Shown here: positions 30,411 to 38,961 of the stretch, piece by piece
Position numbering within the stretch: position 1 is the first letter of the stretch
Layout of the letters: the number at the start of each line of letters is the position of its first letter
Assembly: GCA_021775555.1 (NCBI GenBank)
Contig: JAJFHP010000065.1
Location: forward strand, 62,001 to 126,000
Origin: Hyphomicrobiales bacterium
Lineage (GTDB): Bacteria; Pseudomonadota; Alphaproteobacteria; Rhizobiales; Methyloligellaceae
Reading direction: 5' to 3'
DNA: 64,000 nt
Translations under genes and position numbers: made by a program
The notes under the pieces: generated by a model
Databases searched by the model: none
Seen by the model: only the letters and a program-made list of their open reading frames with translations
What the model was told of the DNA's origin: nothing

Positions 30411-31119
30411 ACGCCCTGCTTAGTTCCGGCCAGTACCAGCGTTAAACAGTGTCACATCCGCACTCAGGTCTCCAAGACTAAACGTGCACTTTTTGCACTA
30501 TATTTCCACCGCCAGTATTGTTGAAAATCGAGCTTCCAGCCTGGATTTCAGGTCTCTTTTCGTGATTGGGAAAATAAATTTGACCAGTCCATTGCTTGCC
30601 CGTTTACGGCCTCTCGAATCGGTGTAATGTTGATGTGCGGACATTGAGCGTCGCGGCCCGCGATTGTGGGCGTTTCCCGAGCAGTTCAGTTCAGTAAACC
30701 TTCCGGTTTCCCTCAATTTGTTCACCAGCTGGTGTACAAAGATTTTACTGCGTGCACACAACACTTAGGGGTACGTTAACCAGCTTCCTACTATATCTTG
30801 ACGTGAATGCAGAATCGGGTGACTTTGATCATTCGTCGGACAATCGAGGTTCGGCACTCTCTGAACGGGCAAGTACCGCGTTGAAATACTTCCGGTTCGC
30901 CGTGTTTTTCCTCATTTTCCAGAGGAATGCGAACGGGTTGGTGGGATGGTTTTGCCGAACGGTTCATTGCCGTTTTGGTTCAGGGAAAAAGCATAAGAAG
31001 CAAGGAGCGCAACAGCTCTGGACGGGGACGTAACAAGCAAGAGAATCCAGGAGCCTTTTTGGGCAACCTCCTGACCACGTCAATGCGTGAAATCAGGATA
31101 TTTTCAAGGACGGGAAAAG
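30411..31119. other. 709-base region before nrdJ with no convincing gene
   Basis: Frames here give atypical products, so no gene is called. The region presumably holds the promoter of nrdJ. Inverted repeats CAGGAG/CTCCTG (31048-31053 with 31068-31073) and CCGAACGG/CCGTTTTGG near 30955-30980 may fold in the leader. I found no cobalamin riboswitch box and no complete NrdR box pair. Confidence 0.5.
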
Positions 31120-34100
31120 ATGCGGATCGAGCGGAAATTTACGGAAGAGGGAAAATCCCCATATGACACGATCGAATTCAGGGAGACTGCGAGTGAGATT
31201 CGCAATCCCGATGGCTCGGTTGTGTTTCAGCTTGATAAATTTGATGTTCCCAAGCAATGGAGCCAGGTTGCAGCCGATATTCTGGCGCAGAAATATTTTC
31301 GCAAGGCCGGTGTTCCCACTCATCTGAAAAAAATCGAGGAGAACACCGTTCCCTCATGGCTGTGGCGCTCGGTTCCGGACGAAGAGTCACTCGCAAAGCT
31401 CCCCGAATTGGATCGACATTCCAGCGAAACGGATGCACGTCAGGTTTTTGACCGACTTGCCGGTACCTGGACCTACTGGGGCTGGAAAGGTGGTTATTTT
31501 TCATCCGAAGAAGACGCCTGCGCCTTCTTTGACGAACACCGCTACATGCTCGCGATGCAGATGGCTGCCCCCAACTCCCCGCAATGGTTCAACACCGGCC
31601 TTCACTGGGCCTATGGCATCGACGGGCCAAGCCAGGGACACTTCTATGTCGATCACAAGACAGGCAAGCTGACCCTCTCAAAAACGGCCTATGAGCATCC
31701 CCAGCCCCATGCCTGTTTCATCCAGTCCATCGAAGACGATCTTGTGAATGAAAACGGGATCATGGATTTATGGGTGCGCGAAGCGCGCCTGTTCAAATAT
31801 GGCTCGGGCACTGGCTCGAATTTCTCTCATTTGCGAGGCGAGAATGAGCCACTTTCGGGGGGTGGAAAATCCTCCGGCCTGATGAGCTTTCTGAAGATTG
31901 GCGACCGGGCTGCAGGCGCCATCAAGTCGGGCGGCACTACTCGGCGCGCGGCTAAAATGGTCGTTGTCGATGTCGATCACCCGGATATCGGGAAATACAT
32001 CAACTGGAAGGTGGTCGAGGAGCAGAAGGTCGCAGCCCTCGTCACCGGATCAAAAATTTGCGCGGAGCGTCTCACTTCGGTCATGCGCGCCTGCGTCAAT
32101 TGCGATGCCGACGGAGATGACTGCTTCGTACCGAAAAAGAACCCGGCGCTAAAACGCGAAATCAGCGCCGCGCGCAAAGCGCTGGTGCCGGACAATTATA
32201 TCCAGCGGGTGGTCCAGTTCGCGCGCCAAGGCTATGAATCAATCGAGTTCCAGACCTATGACACGGACTGGGATTCTGAAGCCTACCTCACCGTTTCAGG
32301 CCAGAACTCGAACAATTCGGTTCGCGTCAACGATGAATTCCTGGCTGCCGTTGAAGCTGGCGGGGAATGGAAACTCATCAACCGTACCAATGGAGACGTC
32401 GCGGAGACCATACAAGCGGCAGATTTATGGGAAGACATCGGCCATGCCGCATGGGCCTGTGCTGATCCCGGCATCCAGTTCCACACCACCATCAATGACT
32501 GGCACACCTGCCCGGCCTCTGGTGAGATTCGCGCCTCCAACCCGTGCTCGGAATATATGTTCCTCGATGACACGGCCTGCAATCTGGCATCGCTCAATCT
32601 GATGACGTTCCGCAACGAGGACGGCAGCTTCGACGTGGAGACCTATGAGCATGCCGTGCGCCTTTGGACCGTGGTGCTGGAAATATCTGTGGTCATGGCG
32701 CAGTTCCCGTCAAAGCAGATCGCGGAACTCTCATATGTCTACCGCACACTCGGCCTCGGCTATGCCAATATCGGCGGGCTTCTGATGGCCAGTGGCATTC
32801 CTTACGATTCGGATGAAGGCCGCGCCATCTGCGGCGCCATCACCGCGCTGATGACCGGCGTTTCCTATGCCACGAGCGCAGAAATGGCAGGCGAGCTTGG
32901 CCCCTTCCCCGGCCACGAGAAGAACGCGAAGCACATGCTGCGCGTGATCCGCAACCACCGCCGTGCGGCACAAGGCAAGTCTGAAGGTTATGAGAAACTT
33001 GCTACCAAACCGGTGCCGCTCGATCACAACTCCTGCCCTGACAAGCGGCTCGTTCTGCATGCAATGCAGGCATGGGACCATGCGCTTGAGCTCGGAACCG
33101 AACATGGCTTCCGTAACGCCCAGGCGAGCGTGATTGCGCCCACAGGCACCATCGGCCTGGTGATGGACTGCGACACCACCGGTATCGAGCCGGATTTCGC
33201 CCTGGTGAAGTTCAAGAAGCTCGCGGGTGGCGGTTATTTCAAGATCATCAACCGCACCGTGCCGGAAGCCCTGAAGAAGCTTGGCTATGACGAGAACGCG
33301 GTCACCGGCATCATCGACTATGCGGTGGGGCACGGCACGCTGAAAGACACACCGGGCATCAACCACGAAGCCCTGAAAGCAAAAGGCTTCACGGATGAGA
33401 AGCTTGAGGCGATCGAGGCCGCCCTTGGCACCGCCTTCGACATCAAATTCGTCTTCAACAAGTGGACGCTTGGCGAGGAATTCTGCGTTGAAGACCTCGG
33501 GTTTGATGCGTCCCGCCTTGATGCGCCTGATTTTGATCTGCTTGGAGAAATCGGCTTTTCATCGGCCGACATTGAGAAGGCCAACACAGCCTGCTGCGGG
33601 GCCATGACGCTGGAAGGCGCCCCGGGCTTGCAGGAAGAGCATTTGCCTGTGTTCGACTGCGCCACGCCGTGCGGACGCATTGGCAAACGCTACCTGGATG
33701 CCAAGAGCCACATCCACATGATGGCCGCGGCCCAGCCCTTCATCTCGGGCGCCATTTCAAAAACCATCAACATGCCGAACGACGCCAGCGTCGAGGACTG
33801 CAAGGAGGCCTACACGCTCTCCTGGCGGCTGGCGCTCAAGGCCAACGCGCTCTACCGCGACGGCTCGAAACTCTCGCAACCGCTCAACTCACAAGTGCTG
33901 GGGCAGGATGAGGACGAACAGGACGAAACGCGTGAAGCCATCGCCGCCGACCAGCCTGCCGCCCAGCGCGCCGAGGTGGTTGCCGAGCGCATTGTAGAGC
34001 GGGTCGTGGAGCGCGTGCGTGAAACGGTTGAGCGCGATCGCCTGCCGCAACGGCGCAAGGGCTACACCCAGAAGGCCATTGTCGCCGGACATAAAGTGTA

Positions 34101-34854
34101 TCTGCGCACGGGCGAATATGACGACGGGCGGCTGGGCGAGATTTTCCTCGACATGCACAAGGAGGGCGCTGCCTTCCGGGCGATGATGAACAATTTCGCC
34201 ATCGCCGTTTCCGTTGGCCTGCAATATGGCGTGCCGCTGGAAGAATTTGTCGATGCTTTCACTTTTACGCGTTTTGAGCCAGCCGGTCTGGTGCAGGGCA
34301 ACGACTCGATCAAGAACGCGACGTCGATCCTCGACTATGTGTTCCGCGAGTTGGCGGTCTCCTATTTGGGACGCAATGAGCTTGCCCATGTGGAGCCTTC
34401 CGATATCGGCAGCACGGTGCTTGGCAAGGGCGAGAGCGAAGGCCAAGGCACGCAAAACACAGCATCCCAGTATGTTTCTCGAGGCTTTACCCGCGGTCAG
34501 CTCGACAAGCTGGTCGTGGTGGCGGGGCAGTCCGCCGAGGCGAGTGCGGTAGCGGCAAGTGCAATTTCATCGGGTGTATCCCAAACCACGAGTTCCTCCC
34601 TAGCGTCCGATAATTTGCCACCACAGCAACCGCGCAGCCTCGGTGCTGCGGCGGTGGCCGAAGAGGTGCTCTCCCCTCCGGCCACCGCATCTTCTCCCGG
34701 TGTCACCGAGCGCAGCGCCAGCGACATGATTCTCGAGGCCCGCGTTAAAGGCTATGAGGGCGAGGCCTGCGGCGAATGCGGCAACTTCACGCTGGTGCGC
34801 AACGGCACGTGTTTGAAATGCGACACGTGTGGGGGGACGAGCGGGTGTAGTTGA
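31120..34854 (+). CDS. nrdJ: vitamin B12-dependent (class II) ribonucleotide reductase
   Basis: A 1244-residue reductase making deoxyribonucleotides with adenosylcobalamin, so it works with or without oxygen. The start at 31120 ([11 protein letters not shown]) has AAGGA upstream and matches the family; the frame extends 33 bases further. It has [40 protein letters not shown] and APTGTIG motifs, and a C-terminal cysteine-rich tail CGECGNF...CLKCDTCGG that relays electrons. A charged Glu/Val/Arg segment near residues 955-980 is an insert region. No other ribonucleotide reductase gene is in the window. Confidence 0.96.
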
Positions 34855-34891
34855 TGACCGTGAAAAAGATATAGTCATGAGGTAATGAGTA

Positions 34892-35677
34892 ATGGATGGA
34901 ACAAATTGGACTTGCCCGTTTTGCGGTCACTATCAGACGCTCACAGAGAATAAGTTTGATATTCATGACCACGGAATTTTTGTTGGCAAAAACAAGCACG
35001 GGCAAACAACATATAGAGTCACTGCAATTGGCTGTTCTAACCCTGAATGTGGAGAAGTGAACGTCCAATTCTTCTTCGGCTATGGGAACTACGACGAGTT
35101 AGGTAATCTAAGAGGAATCAAAGAAGTAATTGCCGGTGGCAATATTTTCCCAGAAAGTTCCGCAAAACCTCAACCAAATTTTATTCCAGAGCCACTCCGC
35201 GTCGATTATTTGGAGGCCTGTAGAATTCAGAATCTAAGCCCAAAAGCATCAGCCACCCTCTCACGTCGATGCCTACAAGGCATGATCAGGGACTTCTCTG
35301 GGATTAAGCGAAGTCGCTTAATTGACGAAATCAAGATGCTCCGAAATCAAGTGGATGACGGGTCTGCGGAGTCGGGAATAACCGTTGAGAGTGTTGATGC
35401 TATCGACCATGTTCGGAGTATCGGCAACATTGGTGCACACATGGAAAAAGACATCAATGTCATCATTGATGTCGATCCAGAAGAAGCTCAGGCTCTAATC
35501 GAACTCATCGAACTGCTGTTTGACGAATGGTATGTGGCGCGCAAAACACGTCAAGATCGTCTTGAATCTGTAAAGCAGATCGCGGCAGCCAAAAAGAAAG
35601 CGAAATCCTCATCACCAGCATCCGAGGGTGAAGCTCCTGAACCAGATGAAGGTGAAGGAAGCACTGAAGCAGCCTAA
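34892..35677 (+). CDS. zinc-ribbon plus DUF4145-type protein
   Basis: A 261-residue protein with a probable N-terminal zinc ribbon (C8, C11, C48, C53) and a helical domain (about residues 105-195) with the DUF4145 pattern: LEACRIQNLSPKASATLSRRCLQ, IDEIKMLRN and the RSIGNIGAHMEKD stretch. The tail is Lys/Ala then Glu/Pro-rich. Related domains occur next to restriction and defence genes, but function is not known. Hand counts on two 60-base lines gave 48 and 38 percent GC, below the neighbouring nrdJ end, suggesting transfer. Its stop lies one base before the GIY-YIG element. Confidence 0.7.
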   Translation: MDGTNWTCPFCGHYQTLTENKFDIHDHGIFVGKNKHGQTTYRVTAIGCSNPECGEVNVQFFFGYGNYDELGNLRGIKEVIAGGNIFPESSAKPQPNFIPEPLRVDYLEACRIQNLSPKASATLSRRCLQGMIRDFSGIKRSRLIDEIKMLRNQVDDGSAESGITVESVDAIDHVRSIGNIGAHMEKDINVIIDVDPEEAQALIELIELLFDEWYVARKTRQDRLESVKQIAAAKKKAKSSSPASEGEAPEPDEGEGSTEAA

Positions 35678-35678
35678 C

Positions 35679-35706
35679 CGTCATTCCCGCGAAGGCGGGA
35701 ATCCAA
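35679..35706 (+). repeat. left terminal inverted repeat of the GIY-YIG unit
   Basis: 28 bases containing ATTCCC-N8-GGGAAT at 35683-35702. It begins one base after the stop of the DUF4145 gene and could also act as a hairpin terminator for it. Confidence 0.9.
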
Positions 35707-35715
35707 GTGTGACTC

Positions 35716-36006
35716 TCATCTAATCTCAGCCGTGAGGTCCTTCCACTCCGGGTTATCGCGCATAATCTGACGGATTTTCCAGGCGCGGTTCCATTTTTTC
35801 ATCTTCTTTTCGCGGATGATCGCACTTTCCATCGTCTCATGCGGCTCGTACCAGACAAGCCGTTTCACACCATGTCTCTTTGAGAAACCTTCAACCTGCC
35901 CCGCTTTGTGCTGCGCTATTCGTCGCGGAAGATTACTTGTTACTCCAATGTAAAGTGTCCCGTTTCGCCCACTTGAGAGCATGTAAACGCAAGGGCTTTT
36001 ATCCAT
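35716..36006 (-). CDS. GIY-YIG family nuclease
   Basis: A 96-residue single-domain nuclease starting at the ATG at 36006. Catalytic features are intact: VYML (7-10, replacing GIY), LYIG (18-21), Arg28 in NLPRRI, VWYE near 53 and Glu66 in IIREKKMKKW. The frame stays open through the adjacent repeat, which would be read as PRRRESK; this is a repeat translation rather than protein sequence. Relatives in the UPF0213/YhbQ group cleave DNA, but their biological role is unsettled. It fills the space between the two inverted repeats almost exactly. Confidence 0.88.
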   Translation of the reverse strand: MDKSPCVYMLSSGRNGTLYIGVTSNLPRRIAQHKAGQVEGFSKRHGVKRLVWYEPHETMESAIIREKKMKKWNRAWKIRQIMRDNPEWKDLTAEIR

Positions 36007-36019
36007 AACAACCGCACTT

Positions 36020-36047
36020 TTGGATTCCCGCCTTCGCGGGAATGACG
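36020..36047 (-). repeat. right terminal inverted repeat of the GIY-YIG unit
   Basis: Exact reverse complement of 35679-35706, core at 36024-36043, lying 13 bases upstream of the nuclease start codon. Confidence 0.9.
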
Positions 36048-36127
36048 AAAGAGAAGCAAAGCATGTATTGCTCTTCAATTGTACCTCTGCCTTGCCCCCG
36101 TCACGAACTCGGGCGACAATCGCGCCC

Positions 36128-37396
36128 ATGAGTCGCAATCGGCGAGAGCTACTGAAAGAAGCAGGTGCGGCGGGGCTGGTGGCCCTGTTGCCGGCGTTTG
36201 GCACGTCAGCACCAGCTGAGGCCGCACGCTCCCCGCTTAAACTTCCCAACTGGAACTATGGCGGCAACAGCTTTGCCGACGACACGGTGCTGATGTTCCG
36301 CGGCAACCCATCCCACACCTTCTATGGCACCGGCCCCGTGCCGGATAACCCACGCATCTTGTGGAAACAGCGGCTTGCTTCGCTCCCGACAATCACCCAC
36401 GGCAAAAAGGTAGTCTGGGCGGGCACGGGATGGACCGGCACCGCCGTCAAACAAGGTGAATATGTCTTCGTCGGATCCGCCGGGGGTTATGTCTATGCGT
36501 TCGAGGCGGACACGGGGAAATTAGGGTGGCGATACGGGACGAAACGCCCGCGCATGTATAAGGGCTCGCCCTGCTTCTGGGACAACAAGCTCTATATCGG
36601 CAACACCGACAACCGGCTGCACTGCATCGACGCCAGTACAGGCAAATCGGTGTGGAAATTCGATACCGGGCGCGATCTCGATTCCTCGCCCTGCGTCGTC
36701 GATGGCCGGCTCTATATCGCCGGTGAGAACGGCAATGCGCGTTGTATTGACCCCCGGAACGGCAAACAGATCTGGAAGACCTTTGTCGGCGGTGTTGGCA
36801 AGGGTACGCCGCTCGGTTCAAATGGCTCGGAAACCTCGCCCGCGATCGCCGATGGAGATTTTTACACCGCCACCTATGACGGCATCCTGTTCTGTCTCGA
36901 CATCAAGGATGGCCGCATCAAGTGGAAAACCAGAACCCATGACGACACCGACGCGTCACCGGTGGTCGCGGGTGATTTCGTCTATGCGGCGGCTGAAGAG
37001 AAAGCCTCCTACCTGTTCTGCTTCGAACGGGAAAAGGGCCGCGAGATCTGGCGCTATGGCGGCAACAAGATGGGCTACTGGTCAACGCCCGCATACGCCA
37101 ACGGCCGGCTCTATGTGGGCGGAGATGATTTCAATCTCCACTGCGTCGATGCCACGTCCGGTGCGCCTGTGTGGACCTTCAAGACCGGCGCCGGTGTCTG
37201 GTCCAGCCCGTGTGTGGTGGACGACAAGGTGGTGTTTGGCTCTCGCGATGCGCATCTCTATGTGGTGGATGCGAATACGGGAAAGGAAATCTCCCGTGTC
37301 CGCGTAGATGGGCGGATCATCTCATCCCCCTGCATCGTCGATGGCAATATCTGGGTTGGAACCGCAACAGGCTGGTTCTACTGTTTTGGCGCCTGA
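36128..37396 (+). CDS. exported PQQ-like beta-propeller repeat protein
   Basis: A 422-residue protein from the ATG at 36128. The N-terminus has a twin-arginine type signal (RRELLK, then a hydrophobic stretch ending PAEA). At least seven repeats of the type hydrophobic-C/A-hydrophobic-D-x-x-x-G-x-x-x-W follow (YAFEADTGKLGW, HCIDASTGKSVW, HCVDATSGAPVW and others), the PQQ/BamB propeller pattern. Catalytic quinoprotein residues were not identified, so a scaffold or assembly role is as likely as an enzyme. Its 3' end overlaps the convergent ceramidase-like gene by 19 bases. Confidence 0.85.
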   Translation: MSRNRRELLKEAGAAGLVALLPAFGTSAPAEAARSPLKLPNWNYGGNSFADDTVLMFRGNPSHTFYGTGPVPDNPRILWKQRLASLPTITHGKKVVWAGTGWTGTAVKQGEYVFVGSAGGYVYAFEADTGKLGWRYGTKRPRMYKGSPCFWDNKLYIGNTDNRLHCIDASTGKSVWKFDTGRDLDSSPCVVDGRLYIAGENGNARCIDPRNGKQIWKTFVGGVGKGTPLGSNGSETSPAIADGDFYTATYDGILFCLDIKDGRIKWKTRTHDDTDASPVVAGDFVYAAAEEKASYLFCFEREKGREIWRYGGNKMGYWSTPAYANGRLYVGGDDFNLHCVDATSGAPVWTFKTGAGVWSSPCVVDDKVVFGSRDAHLYVVDANTGKEISRVRVDGRIISSPCIVDGNIWVGTATGWFYCFGA

Positions 37397-38154
37397 GACG
37401 CCTTCGAGGGCAGGTTTTCAATCAGGGCGCGCAGCAGCAGATACAGCATCACCGCGTTGAGAATATGCCACAATGAATGCGTGCCCAGGCTGACGGCCTG
37501 CTCACCCATCTCTCGCGTCATGCACCCGATCCCATTCCCCTTGGGCCAGTCATCAAGAGCGCGCAAAATGAGCGAGAGTGTAAACACGCAAAAAGCGGAC
37601 AGCACCCAATCGGTCACGGGATGCTTGTGCCGGTATAAAACACTCCCGAAAATCGCCATGACAGCCAGGGCGGGCACATAGGCCAGGGAGCCGCTGAAGG
37701 AGGAGTTGAGCGCCGAACAGAGCCGGCCCGGCATCAACTCGTCACACAGGAACATCACGAGCGTTATGACAACCACGAGCCCTGTGACACCCAGCGCGCT
37801 CAATAGGCTCATTCCCAGGAACCGGCGAAGCGCGGTCACCAGGTAGACCGTGATGAAAAGCGTGATGGGTGTGACATCCGTGAGCCGCGCCCAGCCGGTG
37901 GCAAAGGTGTGGAACATGAAACTTCCAACGCCCACCAGCATCGCCAGCCCAATCAGCACCAGAATTTCCCGTGTGCCGCTGTGCGGCCCCTTGGCGCGCA
38001 AATCGGTATAGGCAAACAGGGCGGTGAATAAAAATGCCAGATTGGTCATGGCATTAATTGGTTCAGCCCAGAAGTCGGGGTTCAATGCCCTCTCGCAATA
38101 GCAGCCCACCTGGTCCCAGGCGCCGAGACCTTCCGCGTGACAGGAGTTTATCAT
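37378..38154 (-). CDS. ceramidase-like membrane protein (CREST superfamily)
   Basis: A 258-residue protein with about seven membrane segments. It carries the alkaline-ceramidase/CREST residues: CERALNPDFWAEPINAMTNLAF at the start, Ser78 and His82 in GSFMFH, Asp93 in LTDV and a C-terminal HxxxH (H226, H230) for zinc. Eukaryotic members hydrolyse ceramide amide bonds; bacterial substrates are poorly known. It lies 15 bases downstream of the CinA-like gene and may share its transcript. Confidence 0.85.
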   Translation of the reverse strand: MINSCHAEGLGAWDQVGCYCERALNPDFWAEPINAMTNLAFLFTALFAYTDLRAKGPHSGTREILVLIGLAMLVGVGSFMFHTFATGWARLTDVTPITLFITVYLVTALRRFLGMSLLSALGVTGLVVVITLVMFLCDELMPGRLCSALNSSFSGSLAYVPALAVMAIFGSVLYRHKHPVTDWVLSAFCVFTLSLILRALDDWPKGNGIGCMTREMGEQAVSLGTHSLWHILNAVMLYLLLRALIENLPSKASQAPKQ

Positions 38155-38169
38155 GTTGAAATCCGCATA

Positions 38170-38961
38170 TCAGTGGGCAGCCCCGGTGGTGGTAATTTCA
38201 GAGGAATACTCCGTAAAACCTTCATCTTCCAGCATTTTCCAGATCGATTTCAGCGCCTCCTCCAACTCCCCCTCATCTTGTGATCGCAACACCAGGTTGG
38301 TGCCCAGTTTCTCTTTCACAAAAAATGGATAGCTGCCCATTTGCACATCCGGATGCCCCTCCTGCACCCGCGAAAGCCCGGCCGCCACGATGCCTTCCGG
38401 GCGTTCAACCCGCACGGTGCGAGAAATCATCTTTGCGCCTGTTTTCAGCCTGGGCGCCACGTCGTCGAGCATCACCTGCATGATTCGCGGGACACCAGCC
38501 ATGACGATCACGTTTTGGACCATGAACCCGGGCGCTCCCGATACCGAATTTTTAATCAGCTCGCCGCCCTCCGGAATGCGCGCCATACGCATCCGTGCCG
38601 GCGTAAAGTCACCCGGGGCATAGCGCTTTTCCATGATGGCCACCGCGCGCGGGTCCACGTCTATTGAGACGCCAAGCGCCCTGGCAACCGCATCAGCGGT
38701 GATGTCATCATGGGTGGGGCCTATGCCGCCGGTGGTGAACACATAGTCAAATTTCTCACGAAGCGCGTTGATGGCGGCAACGATCTCGTCCTCGATATCG
38801 GACACCACGCGCACCTCACTCAGGCGAATGCCGATCGCGGTCAGATAGTCCGCGATATATCCGGTATTCTTGTCCTTGGTCCGCCCGGACAGGATTTCAT
38901 CCCCAATGACAATGAGCGCTGCCGTCACGGTTACCCGGGTTTTGCTGTCCTGATTCGTCAC
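38170..38961 (-). CDS. CinA-like molybdopterin-binding domain protein
   Basis: A 263-residue protein with GTG start and an AGGGGG ribosome-binding site. Motifs [38 protein letters not shown] and [12 protein letters not shown] are those of the MoCF_biosynth/CinA N-terminal domain. The C-terminal NMN-deamidase domain of full CinA is absent, so it belongs to the short form common in alphaproteobacteria. Function is uncertain; ADP-ribose pyrophosphatase activity is known for some full-length CinA proteins. It diverges from sfsA. Confidence 0.88.

Follow-up and report, generated by a model that had tools for sequence, protein, structure and literature searches.

Why should the gene of a small nuclease lie between two perfect copies of one palindromic repeat? 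The question is raised by a short unit in a 64,000-nucleotide stretch of a Hyphomicrobiales genome (the window); the source genome, G000, comprises 3,536,616 bases in 76 contigs and is 97.5% complete. An earlier note on this DNA had described an intact GIY-YIG gene of 96 residues between exact 28-base inverted ends, and the sequence confirms this description. The unit, arranged REP-gene-REP, occupies 369 bases on the minus strand (35679..36047), its limits being drawn from DNA homology with a unit of the sister species G002. The longest exact inverted match between 35679-35706 and 36020-36047 is 28 bases, and each arm contains ATTCCC-N8-GGGAAT, a pattern with no other zero-mismatch match in the whole window. 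As an inverted match between two 200-base flanks the arms score 28; letter shuffles, five for each of 114 loci, never reached 12. The enclosed gene (35716..36006, minus strand) starts with the ATG at 36006, stops at 35716-35718 and leaves spacers of only 9 bases on the left and 13 on the right. The 177-residue frame at 36249-35716 results from reading on through the repeat that lies upstream.

The arms belong to a recognizable class of repeats. Each folds by itself into a tag, an 8-bp stem, a 4-base loop and a tail. On the 3' side of the gene (35679..35706, plus strand) these are the outward-pointing tag CGTC (35679-35682), the two stem strands (35683-35690 and 35695-35702) around the loop (35691-35694) and the tail CCA (35703-35705); the lone fold is worth -8.9 kcal/mol as DNA. 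The arm on the 5' side (36020..36047, minus strand) is the exact inverted copy of the first, with an outward tag at 36044-36047, the same CCA tail and a lone fold of -8.7 kcal/mol. The available part of the survey by Di Nocera et al. 2013 (PMC3733652) describes the CGTC-1 REP in the same terms: an unpaired terminal tag CGTC, an 8-bp stem starting with AT, a 4-base loop and a tail that is mostly CCA. Both arms, which have A-T complementarity at the first two stem positions, fit this description, and the same part of the survey equates CGTC-1 with dRS3 in Neisseria (PMC3733652), so the label "dRS3 type" given in the earlier note was well chosen. As far as the available text goes, CGTC REPs apparently have no dedicated transposase, and what moves them was left open in 2013 (PMC3733652).

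The protein itself is readily assigned. Against Pfam PF01541 it scores 61.7 bits (cut-off 22.6), and no other Pfam family exceeds its threshold. Open reading frames and Pfam reveal no transposase gene in the cassette, the HUH/Y1 tyrosine type included, and no separate DNA-binding domain was found by Pfam within the 96 residues. An Rfam search of 30500-38500 gave no match at E values up to 0.1 near the gene; together with the context of open reading frames it places the gene between genes and not in a self-splicing intron. A sequence search of the PDB returned remote GIY-YIG proteins only, and phage records gave no match at E 1e-5. Five residues are nearly invariant among homologues, namely E66 (114/114), Y8 (112/113), Y19 (113/114), R29 (112/114) and N85 (112/113); we take these to be the residues from which catalysis would be expected in a GIY-YIG enzyme. 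The source genome has one further PF01541 match, which belongs to a frame of 665 residues, probably that of UvrC.

Is the pairing of gene and repeats a peculiarity of this genome? We collected loci by protein similarity alone: 30 from the 36 of 61 genomes that had a match, the best 80 of 564 matches in genome contigs, 2 on viral contigs and 10 of 31 matches in a plasmid collection, picked to span different organisms. Of these 122 loci, 117 were flanked on each side by 130 bases or more, and 114, the window locus among them, were left after removal of duplicates. An explicit finder located CGTC REPs on both sides of the gene in 62/114 loci, on one side in 29/114 and on neither in 23/114, the loci being not fully independent, since 11 from Sphingomonas and its relatives have common neighbours and 10 of these are within the 114. 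Control windows of equal geometry, taken from the same loci and shifted by 900-1200 bases, had REPs on both sides in 2/413 cases. Scoring inverted matches between the 200-base flanks gives a similar picture: 69/114 loci reach at least 16, versus 0.7% of 413 shifted windows, 18.8% of between-locus pairings and no letter shuffles. Thus the homologues do not usually lack flanking repeats, an outcome that the earlier note had named as damaging to its proposal of a minimal mobile unit. The 23 homologues without REPs and the 29 with a REP on one side do count against the mobile-cassette reading, as do the 20 of the 62 both-sided loci in which the tags are not both outward (42/62 are).

The two ends of a unit also resemble each other more than chance would have it. 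The same 7-base stem occurs at both ends in 47/62 loci, versus 18% for ends drawn from different loci. As stems differ between loci (CCC, CGG, CTG, CAG and other types), this match is locus-specific. Stem class, moreover, tracks the protein tree more closely than shuffled labels do: 16 changes are needed for 41 labelled rows, compared with 20.0 +- 0.9 after shuffling, and only 2 of 500 shuffles were as low. Recognition of its own ends by the nuclease, as the earlier note had suggested, would fit such matched stems. In distant GIY-YIG relatives from Sphingobium, Rhizobium and Shinella (L152, L154, L157) the flanking palindrome is a longer one, its loop reads CTTGA/TCAAG and, here too, the stems of the two ends match.

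How far the cassette reaches can be read where related units occupy unrelated sites. Between the units of G000 and G002, 370 bases align with 80.3% identity. This stretch extends from a single base beyond one tag to the last base of the other, and the 3.3 kb compared contain no further homology except arm-to-arm matches. The units of G001 and G007 (372 bases, 80.6%) likewise have their edges at the tags, and second units on other contigs of G007 and G001 show the same edges, over 373 and 376 bases. The unit of G012, which comes from another genus of the family, gives an alignment of 375 bases at 74.7%. At the site occupied in G002, the upstream flank in G001 remains homologous as far as the unit's first base, and no farther. 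Beyond it G001 has different sequence; a part of this matches the G002 DNA that lies farther along, ahead of the downstream gene, so only a single junction is readable there; G000 carries that downstream gene without a unit. That the cassette has moved as one unit is thus well supported, in keeping with the earlier proposal, by homology that ends at the repeats and by an association seen throughout the family.

The arms have changed far less than the gene between them. In both the G000/G002 and the G001/G007 pair each arm is identical at 28/28 positions, while the proportion of synonymous differences is 0.72 and 0.71, which is near saturation. Since the opposite arm is the only near-exact donor for conversion in G000, the arms appear to be under constraint. 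Comparison of loci and of these pairs therefore shows ends that are matched in stem and, by all appearances, constrained. We had also considered the inner spacers as a sign of cassette inheritance and dropped them. In the 28 pairs with at least 70% protein identity the values are 0.33 and 0.39 inside versus 0.28 and 0.25 outside (tail excluded), a weak excess confined to these closest pairs; the 257 pairs at 60-70% show none. The argument for a cassette hence rests on the DNA edges.

Sites with the unit missing, reduced or damaged complete the picture. In G003 and G006 a unit lies directly 3' of nrdJ, the gene of a class II ribonucleotide reductase, with a frame-broken nuclease gene in G006. 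In G000 it lies about 820 bases past nrdJ. In G007 a solo REP of a different stem follows the 3' end of nrdJ, and in G001 and G002 gene and repeat are both missing there; the nrdJ match of G004 lies at a contig edge, its end not located, and nrdJ was not found in G005. This comparison within the genus disposes of a conserved 34855-36110 block, which the earlier note had named as an outcome that would speak against it. Three species of the genus have the nrdJ site occupied, so the copy in the window may have been there for a long time, a point that we count against a mobile cassette. A search for an empty site by way of the proteins that flank the window unit found none with a close homologue in the genus, the best identities being 26% and 37% to 39%. 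In G000 the gap between nrdJ and the cassette holds a DUF4145 gene (34892-35677) that is absent there in G003 and G006; its product matches PD-T7-4, a candidate anti-phage protein, at 47.9 bits, and also a PHROG of DNA-binding proteins.

Similar alleles occur elsewhere. Azospirillum lipoferum 4B has a unit with REP pairs in the 617 bases between sufB and sufC, a gap that measures 91 bases in A. ramasamyi, 87 in A. oryzae, 129 in strain B510 and 55 in A. thermophilum and contains no CGTC REP in these four. Among Sphingobium plasmids, TomTYG46, TomMM7A and TomTYG73 carry the unit, the last in frame-broken form; TomTYG64 and TomTYG74 have a single palindrome resembling the outer halves of both REPs, TomTYG65 has a tagless palindrome of another stem, and TomTYG72 has no palindrome at the site. 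The fused palindrome would be compatible with a REP having served as the target, or with a deletion that joined short direct copies. In G031 (L212) an internally deleted unit of about 210 bases keeps two perfect REPs around the last 34 codons. In G011, stretches chosen for two repeat sites about 117 bases apart (L178-L189) proved in 12 of 12 cases to be gene-less, REP-ended elements of about 165 bases; their ends are inverted CGTC REPs of two stem types, one element being mixed-ended, and they have inner bases beside the repeat in common with the nuclease unit of the same genome. The empty and solo-repeat alleles are too diverged for a target-site duplication to be readable. On contigs C36 and C69 of the source genome (L005, L009), two REP copies of different stem have similar surroundings and common bases after the repeat; either an element of older date that lacks the gene, or a REP within genes that were duplicated, may account for them.

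Taken together, we consider it reasonably probable that the unit is a mobile cassette of minimal size, about 370 bases, which is probably autonomous and consists of a GIY-YIG nuclease gene and two outward-tagged CGTC-1 REPs, with the nuclease acting on its own hairpins. The enzyme is, on comparative grounds, the best candidate for the driver of this movement. It would recognize its REP hairpin in single-stranded DNA, either on the lagging strand or in DNA imported by transformation, and would nick at the foot of the hairpin. The freed or broken strand could then be pasted elsewhere, or copied to another site, through host repair or recombination. Copying of repeats without the gene would leave the dispersed REPs of a genome. 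Such a scheme would parallel the RAYT-REP pair, an unrelated nuclease taking the part of the HUH transposase. To our knowledge no GIY-YIG enzyme joins DNA ends, a point that counts against a mobile cassette; joining would therefore have to be supplied by the host.

A different reading makes the nuclease a servant of its host. An Ssn-type enzyme would cut incoming or replicating single-stranded DNA at the REP and so tune DNA uptake or genome dynamics; the REPs would mark or insulate the gene, and spread would take place by ordinary recombination and transfer only. Several observations lend themselves to this reading. A report from 2025 is said to describe the Ssn family as single-strand-specific GIY-YIG nucleases that act on a repeated sequence in Neisseria, and a homologue in N. 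gonorrhoeae, which we assume to be the Ssn protein, is 59% identical over residues 6-96, with CGTC REPs in its vicinity. (Two records that carry the label of N. gonorrhoeae plasmids, L149, are at about 2.17 Mb as large as chromosomes and are probably mislabelled chromosomes.) The gene is, to judge from codon comparisons, under strong purifying selection, with dN/dS of about 0.04 in the G000/G002 and G001/G007 pairs and 0.10-0.23 in four further pairs, the remaining pairs being unusable through saturated synonymous sites or too few differences. In the Sphingomonas group, the common neighbours of the 11 loci imply that the gene stayed at one site for long, which again counts against a mobile cassette, and 5 of the 10 loci within the 114 have an inverted match below 16. 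This retention at one site and the decay of REPs at several loci suggest a gene turned resident in some lineages. However, a host role alone does not predict homology that ends at both tags at unrelated sites, nor internally deleted copies that still end in REPs, nor a genome with just two copies of the end. We consider it a possible but rather doubtful account of the unit as a whole.

Could the gene be a passenger, caught by chance between REPs that another enzyme moves? CGTC REPs are indeed widespread, also without the gene, and, according to the part of the survey available, other transposases may mobilize them (PMC3733652). Exact copies of a looser REP pattern number 0 to 90 per genome in 34 genomes, and REPs occur also in genomes in which no homologue was found, such as G016. 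The rarer stem variants are more frequent in genomes whose sampled unit has them: the CGG variant is present in 6/6 genomes whose unit is of that type versus 14/28 others, and the CTG/CAG variant in 5/5 versus 6/29; the CCC variant is uninformative (16/16 versus 15/18), and the stems ATCCCCG and ATCCCTG were typed among the 34 genomes but not given a count of their own. Once the two unit ends are subtracted for CGG, presence no longer differs (Fisher 0.20) whereas counts still do (rank test 0.01). The unit's own class is the most abundant of the three in 13/27 genomes, and the commonest stem variant occurs regardless of the stem of the sampled unit; these two results, and the REPs in genomes without a homologue, we count against a mobile cassette. 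In 5/27 genomes the count of the unit's own variant was exactly two, equal to the number of unit ends. A passenger, though, would not be expected to have REPs on both sides so much more often than the 2/413 equal-geometry windows of the same loci, nor to have stems matched within a locus. In the source genome, moreover, the 22-base core of the arms occurs, with at most one mismatch, only at the two ends of the cassette. The looser pattern, of 20 bases, is found there with up to two mismatches at 8 places, both arms included. The absence of any other core copy also disfavours the earlier note's second proposal, preferential capture of the gene between resident repeats. We consider a passenger gene improbable. 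Least credible of all is that the repeats are transcription terminators or RNA stabilizers of a small gene, unrelated to mobility: each arm does fold stably alone, and REPs are frequently downstream of genes with RNA roles proposed, as the accessible text has it (PMC3733652), yet this would leave unexplained the matched stems, the cassette edges, the presence of a repeat 5' of the gene and the empty and solo-repeat sites.

Because of the family-wide association, the matched ends and the sharp cassette edges, the GIY-YIG nuclease is now the leading candidate for the mover of CGTC repeats. A broader proposition, which we hold to be evenly balanced, is that CGTC REPs, dRS3 included, are the ends and remnants of widespread mobile elements of about 370 bases that encode nothing but a GIY-YIG enzyme. 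These would be the missing counterpart of the RAYT REPtron, and DNA would be moved by a cutter that has no transposase or recombinase of its own. If the nuclease does drive the movement, such cassettes would rank among the smallest autonomous mobile elements and would bear on the origin of dispersed repeats like dRS3. A term search of the available text of PMC3733652 found no "GIY", and neither did one of PMC6006769, which cites it, as far as its text was at hand. Within an incomplete coverage of the literature, we found nothing that joins GIY-YIG to dRS3, CGTC, palindromic or inverted repeats.

Of the known systems close to this one, the CGTC-1 REP or dRS3, as described in the available text of PMC3733652, has the same tag, stem, loop and tail; in our unit it stands at either end of a nuclease gene. 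The RAYT-REP pairs, or REPtrons, according to that text (PMC3733652) likewise combine the gene of a small DNA-cutting enzyme with flanking REPs as its presumed target, and likewise feature solo repeats and variant-specific pairs. Unlike these, with their HUH/Y1 transposase and GTAG tag, the present unit has a GIY-YIG enzyme and a CGTC tag. From an insertion sequence it differs in having no transposase gene. GIY-YIG homing endonucleases such as I-TevI spread selfishly by way of a DNA break, and our protein has their catalytic domain; the cassette differs from them in being intergenic, in having no Rfam match and no separate DNA-binding domain that we could find, and in possessing terminal hairpins of its own. 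Finally, the likeness to the Ssn family extends to a small GIY-YIG protein, a Neisseria homologue and a repeated palindrome as the likely target. The 2025 report probably covers repeat recognition by this protein family and, if it does, such recognition is already known. In that case, what our comparison would add is the identity of the repeat as a CGTC REP, the matched ends, the sharp edges of the cassette and its empty, solo-repeat and deleted forms.
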